Shown: piece by piece, positions 5,086 through 14,933 of the stretch | Layout of the letters: each line of letters starts with the position of its first letter | Position numbering within the stretch: the stretch's first letter is position 1 | Notes under the pieces: generated by a model | Databases searched by the model: none | The model's input: the letters and a program-made list of their open reading frames with translations, nothing else | What the model was told of the DNA's origin: nothing | Position numbers and translations under genes: made by a program | Source: Tannerella sp. | GTDB taxonomy: Bacteria > Bacteroidota > Bacteroidia > Bacteroidales > Tannerellaceae | Direction: 5' to 3' | DNA: 14,933 nucleotides | Assembly: GCA_031259505.1 (NCBI GenBank) | Contig: JAIRLL010000334.1 | Span: forward strand, 1 to 14,933

Positions 5086-5625
5086 CTATAGAGCGCCTGC
5101 CAATGCGAGGAAAAAAAGGAAAAGAAAATACAGGACGAGGCATATGCCGAAAACTATAGCCGACCACATCGCCCATTTTTTCGCATCTTCCGAAGCCCGT
5201 ATGGCGCCTTCATAATCACCCGCATAATAGGCCGAATTGACTTTTGACGAATGTACAATCGACACGATGCCCAGCGGCATACAGCAGCAGATAGTCGTCA
5301 AAATAGCCCATACCAGATAATTGTCGGGCAACGGCGGGCGAACCGTTTCGGCGCCGAATTGGGAATAAGGATTCGGCTGCGCCGTTTGTTGCTGATAATA
5401 AGTTTGTTGTGATGCCGGTTGATAGGGTGGGGGAGGGGGCGCAGTCTGCTGTGGCGCTGTAAACAGTACGTTCAATTCAGGCAATGTGCGCGCTTCAACC
5501 CAGTCCGGAAACGATCTGTTCCAAACAAGCGTATCGGGTCTGATGGGTGCATGTTTAAGCGTGTCCAGCGAAAACGGCCCCATTTTGACGTTCCCGTTCA
5601 GGTAATAATATGTCTTTTCTTCCAT
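5086..5625 (-). CDS. GYF_2 domain plus CD225/dispanin membrane protein (second paralogue)
   Basis: This 179-residue protein has three parts. Residues ~5-55 are a GYF_2 domain (DUF4339): YYYLNGNVKMGPFSL, then LVWNRSFPDWVEARTLPEL. Residues 56-98 are a proline-, glutamine- and tyrosine-rich linker with a run of five prolines. Residues ~103-175 are a CD225/dispanin module: NYLVWAILTTICCC, then AGDYEGAIRASEDAKKWA, ending in a long hydrophobic helix. Cysteines 113-115 sit where IFITM-type proteins carry palmitoylated cysteines, though lipidation in bacteria is not established. GYF domains bind proline-rich peptides, so the linker could be a ligand for this or a sibling protein. I chose the ATG at 5623-5625, which aligns with the paralogues' MEEK start; an in-frame start at 5667 would add 14 residues coded by an inverted repeat. 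Exact function unknown. Confidence 0.85.
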   Translation of the reverse strand: MEEKTYYYLNGNVKMGPFSLDTLKHAPIRPDTLVWNRSFPDWVEARTLPELNVLFTAPQQTAPPPPPYQPASQQTYYQQQTAQPNPYSQFGAETVRPPLPDNYLVWAILTTICCCMPLGIVSIVHSSKVNSAYYAGDYEGAIRASEDAKKWAMWSAIVFGICLVLYFLFLFFLALAGAL

Positions 5626-5638
5626 TACAGTAATATAC

Positions 5639-5676
5639 ACATTTTCCATGCGTTGCGGTCTGCGCATGGAAAATGT
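5639..5676. promoter_or_regulatory. Perfect 14-bp inverted repeat between the two CD225 paralogues
   Basis: Arms at 5639-5652 (ACATTTTCCATGCG) and 5663-5676 (CGCATGGAAAATGT) are perfectly complementary around a 10-nt loop. The element lies 33 nt after the stop of the upstream paralogue and 13 nt before the start codon of the downstream one. As RNA it would form a strong stem-loop. There is no U-tract directly after it, so it looks more like an mRNA-processing, stability or translation-control element, or a protein-binding palindrome, than a simple terminator. Confidence 0.65.
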
Positions 5677-5709
5677 ATTTTCAATGTATTTGTCTTCTCA
5701 ATAATTATA

Positions 5710-6228
5710 TCAATAGTCAAGTGCTCCGGACGAAATACCTACAGCAATAACTATAGCATAAATAATAATCACAATTACACCCACAATTCCACCGGCGATA
5801 GCCGTCCATATAGCCAGGTTCTTAGCGTTTTCCGAAGCTTTCTGCGCGCCTTCATAATCGCCGGCGATGTAAGCGGAACTTACTTTCGTGGAATTGATAA
5901 TTGCAAATATACCCACCGGCCAGCAGCAAAACATTGTCGTCAGAATAGCCCAGACAAGGTAGTTTTCAGGCATGGGCGGCGGGACATTCGCGCCGCCGAG
6001 CGGACTTCTCTGACTGTATGCAGGCGCCGCCTGCGCTGTCGGGGGTGGCGCTGTCTCTACTGCAAACAACCCTTGCAGTTCGGGCAGCGTGTTTGCGGCT
6101 ACCCAGTTGGGGAGCGTATTGTTCCACACTAATGTAGACGCCGTTACAGGGGCACTCTTCAATGCCTCCAACGACAGGGGACCTACTTTGGTCTCTCCAC
6201 TAAGATAATAATAATCTTTCTCTTCCAT
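5710..6228 (-). CDS. GYF_2 domain plus CD225/dispanin membrane protein (first paralogue)
   Basis: The 172-residue protein has the same build as its downstream neighbour. Residues ~5-55 are the GYF_2 domain (YYYLSGETKVGPLSL, then LVWNNTLPNWVAANTLPEL). Residues 56-87 are a shorter proline/alanine linker. The CD225 module starts with NYLVWAILTTMFCCWPVG at 89-106, followed by STKVSSAYIAGDYEGAQKAS and NAKNLA, and ends in a hydrophobic helix at ~140-165. The AGDYEGA and A-K-x-A positions match the conserved GD/AK pattern of dispanins. The two genes clearly arose by tandem duplication. It has its own good promoter (6261-6292) and appears to head a three-gene operon with the second paralogue and the DUF2752 gene. 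Predicted to sit in the inner membrane with the GYF domain on one face. Function not known. Confidence 0.87.
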   Translation of the reverse strand: MEEKDYYYLSGETKVGPLSLEALKSAPVTASTLVWNNTLPNWVAANTLPELQGLFAVETAPPPTAQAAPAYSQRSPLGGANVPPPMPENYLVWAILTTMFCCWPVGIFAIINSTKVSSAYIAGDYEGAQKASENAKNLAIWTAIAGGIVGVIVIIIYAIVIAVGISSGALDY

Positions 6229-6260
6229 AAATATTTATCCAATTTTGTCAATATCTCCGA

Positions 6261-6292
6261 CAAAGATATGGTATTGTTGTTTTACGCACAAA
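6261..6292 (-). promoter_or_regulatory. Bacteroidota-type promoter for the GYF/CD225/DUF2752 operon
   Basis: On the minus strand the -33 box TTTG is at 6292-6289 and the -7 box TATCTTTG is at 6268-6261, separated by 20 bp. Both match the primary-sigma consensus of this phylum (TTTG, 19-21 bp, TAnnTTTG). The expected transcript start near 6256 gives a leader of about 28 nt before the ATG at 6228. Confidence 0.7.
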
Positions 6293-6343
6293 TTATTTTC
6301 AAAAAATATTGGCTGCCTTATTGTTTTTTTTTTCATCAGTTGG

Positions 6344-6874
6344 CTATATATCCAAGAAATCCGTACCTAAAAAGCTAAGCATACCTCCCAGAAAAAAGGC
6401 TATCAGAATAAGGACGATAAGACTAAGACATGAAATTATCAAACCCGCAATGGCCATCCCTCTGGGTTCTTTAAAAATGCCGACAAACGACAGAATAAGA
6501 CCAATAATCCACGAAAGCCAGCCAAGTACCGGGACCCAGCCTAACAACAAACCGACAAGCGCCAGTACAAAACCTGCCGTTCCGACACCGTTTGTTTCCT
6601 TTGCCGGAGGAGAATTGACGAATACGGTGGAGGTTGGCTGCCACGGCGGTTGCACATTTCCGGCATAGGCGGTTCCCGGAAACGGAGGTGGCGGCGGAGG
6701 TTGCGAGGCAAATAATTCAGCCAGTTCCGGCAATGTCCGGGCTTCCGTCCAGTTCGTCAATGCGTTGTGCCAAATCAGCGTATTTCGCGAAATCGGTGCA
6801 TTCTTAAGCGCCTCCAGCGAAAATGGTCCTACTCTCGTTTCTCCGTTCAAATAAAAATATTCTCTGTTTTCCAT
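6344..6874 (-). CDS. GYF_2 domain plus DUF4190-like membrane protein
   Basis: This 176-residue protein shares its N-terminal GYF_2 domain (residues ~5-56: YFYLNGETRVGPFSLEALK, then LIWHNALTNWTEARTLPEL) with the two CD225 paralogues, but its membrane part is different. After a linker with a six-proline run (59-64), residues ~97-135 form hydrophobic helices with GTAGFVLALVGLLLGWVPVLG and a glycine-rich WIIGLILSFVGIF. A further helix pair follows GMAIAGLIIS at ~140-168. This resembles DUF4190-type modules (G-x-x-S/G-rich, two to four helices). It lies 115 nt upstream of the first CD225 paralogue, which has its own promoter. The same sensor-like head on a different membrane anchor suggests these proteins act in one process, but that is inference. 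Confidence 0.83.
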   Translation of the reverse strand: MENREYFYLNGETRVGPFSLEALKNAPISRNTLIWHNALTNWTEARTLPELAELFASQPPPPPPFPGTAYAGNVQPPWQPTSTVFVNSPPAKETNGVGTAGFVLALVGLLLGWVPVLGWLSWIIGLILSFVGIFKEPRGMAIAGLIISCLSLIVLILIAFFLGGMLSFLGTDFLDI

Positions 6875-11216: not shown

Positions 11217-14200
11217 TCAAATGTTTTTGTTGAGAAACTTGCGTACGGTTTCCACCGGTTCGTGCCGGCGGGCGGCGTAGTCGTGCAGTTGTTCGTCCGA
11301 GATTTGTCCGATCATGAAGTAGCGCGCTTCGGGATGGGCGAAGTAGAGACCGGCCACAGTGGCGGTGGGAGTCATTGCGCCGTTTTCCGTGATCCGGATA
11401 CCTGATTTTTCAGTTTGCAGCAGTCGGTCGAGGGTAAATATTTGCAGTTGGTCGGGGAGTGAGGGATAGCCGACGGCCGGGCGGATGCCCTGATATTTGG
11501 CTTTCAGCATGTCGTCGACAGTCAGTGTTTCGCAGGCGGCATATCCCCAGTATTCGCGCCGGACTTTCTCGTGCAGATACTCGGCTGCGGCTTCGGCCAG
11601 GCGGTCGGTCAGGGTCTGGAGGAGGAGCAGGCGATAGTCGTCGCCCTCGCTTGCGAACTGCTCTGCCAGTCCGTCCGGTCCCGTCCCGGCGGTTACGGCA
11701 AAGGCGCCGAGATAGTCCGTCCGTCCGTCCGTATCGGGCATGATGTAGTCGGCCAGCGACAGGCAGACGCCGTCTGCGGGCGTCTGGCGGCGGAGCATTG
11801 GAAATGTTTCGCCGCTGACATGGATGTCGTCTCCGGTCGCCGTGGCGGGGAAAAATCCGTAACGCGCCCGGCAGCAGTACGCGCCGTCATCGATCATGCG
11901 GCGCAGCATCGCCCGTGCGTCGTCGAACAGTTTCATAGCCTCTTCAGCCCTGTCGCGCGTGTCGTCGGGCTGTCCGGCGAGCCATGCGGCGCGACATCCT
12001 TTGCAGTCGTGCAGTTCGGCAAGACCGGCATACTGTCCGCTCATGCGCCACGTCATGAAGAAGAAAGTCCAGTTGATGTAGGGGGCGACTGCTTCCGGAC
12101 GTATCGCCAGTTCCTGCACGCCCGTTTGTGCGGGTTTCACCGGCGTGAAGGCTGCCCAGTCGACGCGCAGCCGGCGCGCACGCGCTTCCTCAAGCGGCAG
12201 CAGGCGGTCTTTTTTCGTGTCGGAGAGATGGCGAAGCTGTGCGTATTCGTCGTTCAGTTCGCGCACAAAATCGTCGCGCGTGGCCGGATTCAGCAGTTTG
12301 GAGGCCAGCAGCGGGCTTTGCGAGGCGTCGGCGCCGTATACGACCGGGTAGTCGTAGCGGGGAGCTATCTTCAGCGCTGTGTATATCTTCGACGTCGTGG
12401 CGCCGCCGATCATGATCGGGATGTGCTGTCCGGCCTTCTGCATTTCCTCGGTGACGTGCACCATTTCATCAAGCGACGGCGTGATCAGCCCCGACAGGCA
12501 CAGTATATCGGGCTGCTCGTCCACGACGGTGCGGATGATTCTGTCGGCAGGCACCATCACGCCAAGGTCAATGACTTCGTAGTTGTTGCACGTCAGTACG
12601 ATGGAAACGATGTTTTTCCCGATGTCGTGCACGTCGCCCTTGACAGTGGCAAAGACGACCTTGCCGGTTTTCGTCGCCGCCCCGTCCGTTTTTTCCGCCT
12701 CGATGGCTGGCTGCAGCAGGGCAACCGCCTTTTTCATCGTGCGGGCGGTTTTGACCACCTGAGGGAGGAACATCTTCCCTTCGCCGAACATTTCTCCCAC
12801 CCTGTTCATCCCGTTCATCAGCGGGCCGTCGATAATCGACACCGCCCGTTCGTATACCTGCAAGGCTTCGCCAATATCTGTTTCCATGTAGTCGCCGATG
12901 CCCTTTATCAGTGCGTATTCGAGCCGTTCGCCCGGCGGCAGGCTGCGCCACGCATCCTTTTCAGCCTCCGGACGGTCGCCTGGCTGCCGCATGTTTTGCT
13001 GCGCATACGCAATCACTTCGTCCGCAGCTTCGGGTCGGCGCGCCAGAATCACGTCTTCGAGCAGCGAGCGGAGCGGTGGGTCAATGTCGTCGTAGCTGAC
13101 AGTCGACGAAGGGTTCACAATGCCCATGTCCATCCCTTCGCGGATGGCATGAAAGAGGAAGACGGCATGCATGGCTTCGCGCACATAATTGTTGCCGCGA
13201 AACGAGAAAGACAGATTGCTCACCCCGCCACTCACGTGTGCGCCGGGCAGGTTGCGCTTTATCCACGCCACGGCGCGGATGAAATCCAGCCCGTAGCGGC
13301 TGTGTTCCGCCATTCCTGTGGCAATCGCCAGTACGTTAGGGTCGAAGATGATGTCGTGCGGCGGGAAACCGGCACGTGTCAACAGACGGTAGGCGCGTGC
13401 GCAGACGGCGGTTTTACGCTCGAACGTATCGGCCTGCCCTTCCTCGTCGAACGCCATCACCACCACGGCAGCGCCCAGACGGCGGATGTGGGCGGCGCGC
13501 GACAGAAACGTCGCTTCGCCTTCTTTCAGGCTGATGGAATTGACGATGCTCTTCCCCTGCACGCAGTACAGCGCGCGCTCGATGACTTCCCACTTCGACG
13601 AATCGATCATCACCGGCACGCGGGCAATATCGGGTTCCGATGCGACAAGATTCAGGAACACGGTCATCTCGTGTGCGGCGTCCAGCAGTCCGTCGTCCAT
13701 GTTGATGTCGATCACCTGGGCGCCGTCTTCGACCTGCCGGCGGGCGATGACCAGCGCTTCTTCATAATTCTCTTCCCTGATCAGGCGGAGGAAACGACGC
13801 GAGCCTGCCACGTTGCAGCGTTCGCCGATGTTGATGAAGTTGTTTTCGGGCTTCACTTCGAGCAGTTCCAGTCCCGAAAGCCACAGGCGCTCCGGCGCCG
13901 GCTTCGGGCGACGGGGATGCGCGCCGCGGACGATGCCGGGATAGTGTGCGATGTGAGCAGGGGTTGTGCCGCAGCATCCGCCGACGATGTTGACCAGTCC
14001 ATCGTCGACAAAAGCGCGGATGTGCCGCGCCATCGTGTCGGGCGTTTCGTCGTACTGTCCGAAATTGTTCGGCAGTCCGGCGTTGGGATGCGCGCTGACA
14101 AAATACGGCGCCAGGTCGGACAGTTCTTTCAGGTACGGCTTCATTTCGGCGGCTCCAAACGAGCAGTTCAGTCCGACGGAGATGAGCGGAACATGCTGTA

Positions 14201-14933
14201 CGGATGCCAGAAAGGCAGCCAGCGTCTGTCCGGAGAAACTCCTCCCTCCCTGCCCCGACAGGGTCAGCGAGAGCATGAGCGGCAGCCTGACGTCGCGGTC
14301 TGCCATGATCTGCATCGCCGCGTTCAGTCCGGCCTTGACGTTCAGCGTATCAAACACGGTTTCGAACAGAAGGATGTCTACCCCGCCTTCGATCAGCGCG
14401 TCCACCTGTTCGGCATAGGCGCCGTAGAGGTCGGCATACGTCACGGCGCGGTAGGCAGGCCGTTCCACATCGGGACTCATGGTAGCCGTTTTGTTGGTCG
14501 GCCCGATTGAGCCGGCCACGAAAACCGTCCGTCCGACATGTGTCGCCATGTAGTCGTCGGCCTGTTCGCGCAGATCGGTCAGGAGCGACCGCTCCCTGGC
14601 GATGCCGGTCAGCACCGTCCCCGCGCCCTGCAGGGGGTGGGGACGGCGCACCGACTCGTAGCGCCGGATCAGCTCCGAGTCGGTCGCGTCCAGGAAAACG
14701 ATGCGGTGGTTGACGCCGCCCGCCCGCAGGGCGTTGATCGCCGCCCCGTGCAGCGTGCCGCCCTTGGGTTCGACGATGCGGGCCGACGGGCAGAGCTTGC
14801 GGATTTCCGCCTCGACGAGCGGTTGATAGGGAGCGCCGCCCCGCGCGCAGCTTCCGAGCAGCACGACCTGCGGACCGCGCGGGAACACCAGCGCCCGGCT
14901 CGCGCCCGCCACCAGGCCCGCCAGCGCGCGCGC
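11217..14933 (-). CDS. metH: Cobalamin-dependent methionine synthase, 5' part replaced and cut by window edge
   Basis: MetH transfers a methyl group from 5-methyltetrahydrofolate to homocysteine through cobalamin. Numbering from the GTG at 14912: the homocysteine domain continues from ~117 with [16 protein letters not shown] and the zinc cysteines C250 (GLNCSF) and C313-C314 ([10 protein letters not shown]). The pterin domain follows from ~350 ([29 protein letters not shown]). The B12 domain has the cap at ~655-740 and GDVHDIGKN at 759-767, with H762 as the cobalt ligand. The AdoMet activation domain includes [11 protein letters not shown] and [16 protein letters not shown]. The C-terminus is complete. 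The normal first ~100 residues, including the DGAMGT strand, are absent; the frame instead reads through RapZ-like and sugar-kinase-like sequence and stays open to the window edge. The GTG at 14912 is therefore not a credible start. GC (~60%) is above that of glnS (~47%) in hand counts. Confidence 0.9.
14553..14732 (-). pseudogene. RapZ-like internal fragment fused in frame to metH
   Basis: About 55 residues match the middle of the RapZ/YvcJ nucleotide-binding family: [19 protein letters not shown], then RRPHPLQG, then [17 protein letters not shown]. The wording is closest to actinobacterial RapZ, in which [11 protein letters not shown] is typical. The Walker A start and the C-terminal half of RapZ are missing. 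It joins MetH at QADD (14553-14564), where both families have similar residues (RapZ LREQAD, MetH helix xADEW). This is a foreign insert or an assembly chimera, not a functional rapZ. Confidence 0.65.
14715..14933 (-). pseudogene. BadF/GlcNAc-kinase-like C-terminal fragment at the window edge
   Basis: About 70 residues, open at the window edge, read [17 protein letters not shown], then [20 protein letters not shown], then [19 protein letters not shown]. This matches the C-terminal pattern of BadF/BcrA and N-acetylglucosamine-kinase-type ATPases: helix, V-V-L-x-G-G/S strand, a P-L-x-E helix, R-I-V-E-P, then G-A-A. It joins RapZ-like sequence at ALRAGG (14715-14732). The DNA is much more GC-rich than the rest (46/60 at 14701-14760; 45/53 at 14881-14933 by hand count). 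The family call is moderate because only the tail is present. Confidence 0.45.

Follow-up and report, generated by a model that had tools for sequence, protein, structure and literature searches.

Assembly of mixed communities yields inter-species chimeric contigs, some of them by false routes taken in de Bruijn graphs, as described in a study of simulated viral metagenomes (PMC4585024). The contig end analysed here is like the inter-species chimeras of short-read metagenome assembly, in that a contig is continued into the DNA of other organisms via short shared stretches. It differs from them in having two joins in less than 400 bases and a reading frame that is open throughout, mimicking a fusion gene. 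Three known protein families are involved. The likeness to B12-dependent methionine synthase (MetH; TIGR02082 and PRK09490) lies above the curated cut-offs and covers residues 122 onward of the frame, but unlike known MetH the frame lacks the first ~110 residues and has unrelated sequence there instead. RapZ (PRK05416; PF03668) is matched by residues ~65-131, a middle piece only, unlike full RapZ. The BadF/BadG/BcrA/BcrD ATPase family (PF01869; N-acetylglucosamine-kinase-like) is represented by near-identical DNA over part of a gene, amounting to ~75 of about 339 codons.

The window, that is, the whole stretch of DNA studied, is the entire contig C125 (14,933 bases) of a draft genome of 2.65 Mb in 417 contigs, which is 80.8% complete with 0.9% contamination. 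A single open frame on the minus strand runs from 14933 to 11217, comprises at least 1238 codons and is still open at the last base. It joins metH and the last ~385 bases of the contig, with pieces of three origins (Table 1). The odd metH start is almost certainly a chimeric contig end and hence an artefact, whether made during assembly or in the library.

Table 1. Pieces and joins of the minus-strand frame at the end of the contig, from metH outward
Feature	Position	Strand	Evidence
Ordinary metH (B12-dependent methionine synthase), start missing	11217..14547	-	PRK09490, TIGR02082 above cut-offs; 87% protein identity to L045
Join 2, 24 bases fitting rapZ and metH	14548..14571	-	24/24 identical to L004 rapZ, 22/24 to L045 metH
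Foreign piece 2, internal part of an actinobacterial (Bifidobacteriaceae-like) rapZ	14572..14707	-	PF03668 positions 81-134 of 158; DNA identity 84% to L005, 82% to L004
Join 1, 21 bases with an exact fit to the BadF gene and an approximate one to rapZ	14708..14728	-	Side-by-side letters
Foreign piece 1, near the C-terminal end of an Opitutaceae BadF/BadG/BcrA-family gene (N-acetylglucosamine-kinase-like)	14729..14933	-	Identity to G287 and Ct408_bin80; PF01869

The metH part is ordinary from 14571 down. The two NCBIfam models start at residue 122, at model positions 116 and 100, and the pterin-binding, B12-binding and activation domains follow in frame (PF00809, PF02607, PF02310 and PF02965). 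The N-terminal strand of the homocysteine-binding barrel with its DG[G/A]MG motif is absent from the window's frame, and judged against relatives ~110 codons of the metH start are missing. A native start was sought in the draft with PF02574 and with the N-terminal protein of a relative and was not found; the search matched this contig only, plus contig C156 at chance level (E 0.197). The closest relative metH was that of the same-genus locus L045 (189 residues matched with a 310-residue query), and a second same-genus genome showed 84% protein identity to the metH part. These two values, as expected for a native contig, argue against the idea that the entire contig was mis-binned and is foreign to the draft, which would make the comparison with the relatives' metH misplaced. 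Nothing specific points to mis-binning in a draft of the completeness, contamination and contig number given above, and we consider it very improbable.

The 310-residue query had matches in 53 of 60 relatives (54 of 61 with the genome itself), and seven of the 60 had none. Among the places listed in the 53 matching relatives, some of which weakly match homocysteine methyltransferase-like genes other than metH, none started before query residue 109. Twenty loci were fetched, one being the window itself and the other 19 (L045-L063) the best-scoring 19 of the 53 matching relatives. All 19 had the usual MetH N-terminus with an open frame upstream, and in each a DG[G/A][M/L]G motif stood exactly 92 residues upstream of the position of residue 122. 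Aligned without gaps, the foreign part of the window was 22-31% identical in DNA to these 19 loci, which is about chance. The first-pass annotation had placed the break in the MetH alignment at QADDYMAT, with about 100 residues including a DGAMGT strand missing before it, and both observations are borne out by the models and by the examined relatives.

The outermost piece could be traced to a nearly identical gene. From 14933 to 14708, 225 of 226 bases were identical to an intact BadF-family gene in genome G287 (G287:C1:5158177-5158402), where the match lies on a 7.82 Mb contig inside a 339-codon open frame. This genome was placed in the family of the Opitutaceae MAG Ct408_bin80 (locus L003), which itself matched 217 of the 226 bases, with residues 1-74 at 97%. 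Both whole source-type genes match PF01869, and that of G287 also matches an N-acetylglucosamine kinase model, below its cut-off. Residues 1-66 alone matched no Pfam family at E<=0.001, yet at the DNA level they belong to a BadF-family gene. In the family of the Opitutaceae MAG, 57 of 252 genomes had a match to the BadF piece and, beyond G287 and Ct408_bin80, the best of the other 55 was 70% identical; at most three candidates were scored per genome, so that better matches within them could be missed. MAGs with the names Ct408, Cd354 and Pcl387 are, we presume, from termite guts.

The draft has BadF-family members of its own, which counts against a chimera: two other, different BadF-family matches were found at G000:C153:3989-4447 and G000:C186:9778-10113. 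The profile positions matched there are 4-156 and 1-128, respectively. As a source of the foreign piece these two loci were rejected, since they match the N-terminal part of the profile and were not matched by the DNA search.

The middle piece is a fragment of rapZ. The RapZ-like_N domain (PF03668) matched residues 74-127 (E 1.2e-13) and the RapZ model PRK05416 residues 65-131, with a best score of 59.7 bits vs a cut-off of 244; in DNA, the similarity spans 14728-14548. When genome contigs were scanned with the 127 foreign residues, 41 loci were obtained. The best was the Opitutaceae BadF locus, and the other 40 were actinobacterial by the genera in their record titles; the best four were Bifidobacteriaceae MAGs. 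Beyond the two loci in Table 1, DNA identity of the RapZ piece was 75% to both L006 and L007. The match in L004 lies inside a 310-codon rapZ, located between uvrC and yvcK-whiA, in which both domains are complete, whereas the piece in the window lacks the start of the N-terminal domain and the C-terminal domain (no PF22740 match). The exact donor was sought in 18 genomes of the L004 family, of which ten had a match, the best at 84%, and this modest identity also counts against a chimera. No other RapZ-like_N domain was found in the draft genome.

The two joins lie some 160 bases apart, and their lengths (~21 and 24 bases) are estimates because neither the native start of metH nor the exact donor of the rapZ piece was found. 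At the outer one, identity to G287 ends at 14708, from where the G287 gene continues to its own stop and the window continues as rapZ; the similarity to rapZ starts at 14728-14729. At the inner one, the 24 bases sit within a 26-base exact word of L004 rapZ. By plain arithmetic with uniform composition, a 2.65-Mb genome and an assumed random community of 1 Gb would share ~1200 words of 21 bases, 19 of 24 bases and 0.02 of 29 bases by chance, so that shared words of 21-24 bases are expected at small k and words of at least 29 bases are not. The first-pass annotation had placed the junctions at 14553-14564 and 14715-14732, close to those found here. It had also read the replaced part as an in-frame RapZ middle segment that looked actinobacterial, followed by a BadF/N-acetylglucosamine-kinase tail, and the family matches and DNA identities agree with this.

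Base composition changes along the same pieces, from 61% GC in the first 1000 bases of metH to 72% in the RapZ part and 76% in the BadF part. The earlier description of a rise from ~62% at 14461-14520 to 77-85% was right about the first value (62%), but the range given for the DNA beyond it fits only three of the six 60-base lines from 14581 to the end (77, 68, 77, 68, 75 and 85%).

The three pieces have separate origins, adjacent pieces come from different organisms and meet in short stretches compatible with either neighbour, as in chimeric contigs, and the whole lies at a contig end, while the metH starts of the examined relatives are ordinary. We propose that the native contig would extend to metH codons around 14571, beyond which the assembler would have strayed first into the rapZ of an actinobacterium and from there into a BadF-family kinase gene of an Opitutaceae bacterium, each crossing going through a stretch of ~21-24 bases that fits both sources. 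Such joins could have been made by a de Bruijn-graph assembler working at small k, and the organism would presumably possess a normal metH, the 5' end of which is missing from the draft. Contig names beginning with 'k119_', which resemble those of MEGAHIT, occur in MAGs that are related to the donors.

The main alternative to an assembly origin is a chimera made in the library, by amplification or ligation of fragments of three organisms. The same evidence, namely three origins and short stretches fitting both sides, would be expected from it, and it would leave the conclusion of an artefact unchanged. We regard it as unlikely, since two joins only ~160 bases apart, at stretches of the size of a small k-mer, would be explained more simply by a walk through the assembly graph.

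A chimeric contig end is also favoured by the searches made for counterparts. In the draft itself, both the foreign DNA and the RapZ-like_N domain were found only at this contig end, and the idea that the foreign pieces stem from elsewhere in the genome was rejected on these grounds. In 36 same-genus genomes, with no more than 19 candidates scored in each, the foreign DNA had no match in 35. The remaining genome has one exact match of 22 bases to the foreign part (G022:C188:1425-1446), probably by chance. A protein search with residues 1-135 gave no match at E<=0.001 among 4034 candidates, all of them 0.55-1.75 times the query length; even the window's own protein was not returned. The order BadF-RapZ-MetH was found in none of the 60 relatives among the places listed.

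These results bear on the second option raised at that time, a real, strain-specific BadF-kinase/RapZ/MetH fusion produced through a pair of very recent transfers into the start of metH. Its sole support is the unbroken frame, and the frame staying open across both joins does count against a chimera. A real fusion would, however, need DNA from two different phyla to have come together within 385 bases, one donor contributing a piece that differs from its source gene at a single base in 226, and would deprive MetH of the DG[G/A]MG strand that all 19 examined relatives' loci retain, and neither the 60 relatives, the 36 same-genus genomes nor the search with residues 1-135 yielded the same arrangement. 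It is thus extremely improbable. Selection cannot be read from the open frame, which can be understood as a by-product: all three pieces are GC-rich coding DNA, and each shared word has the same reading frame in its two parents.

A chimeric contig end, which the first-pass annotation had already ranked as most likely, is therefore the best explanation of the odd metH start: at the end of a contig, 385 bases bring together DNA of two donors from different phyla, that of one donor almost unaltered, and no counterpart was found in the searched relatives. Very probably no fusion protein exists here. If a three-part protein were expressed, no function would be expected of it, because the first strand of the homocysteine-binding barrel is missing and only fragments of two other proteins are present. 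The case is of value only as a warning: where a frame stays unbroken across a contig end, gene callers may accept it, and a spurious 'fusion protein' can find its way into databases. Annotation of metH in this contig should leave out the last ~385 bases.

Two other features of the window were observed. Opposite metH, a 979-codon open frame occupies 11571-14510 on the plus strand, probably as a by-product of GC-rich codon usage. At 5086-6874 on the minus strand there are three adjacent genes, each with a GYF_2 domain at its start, two of which also have a CD225 (interferon-induced transmembrane protein-like) domain; the three genes may be tandem duplicates.
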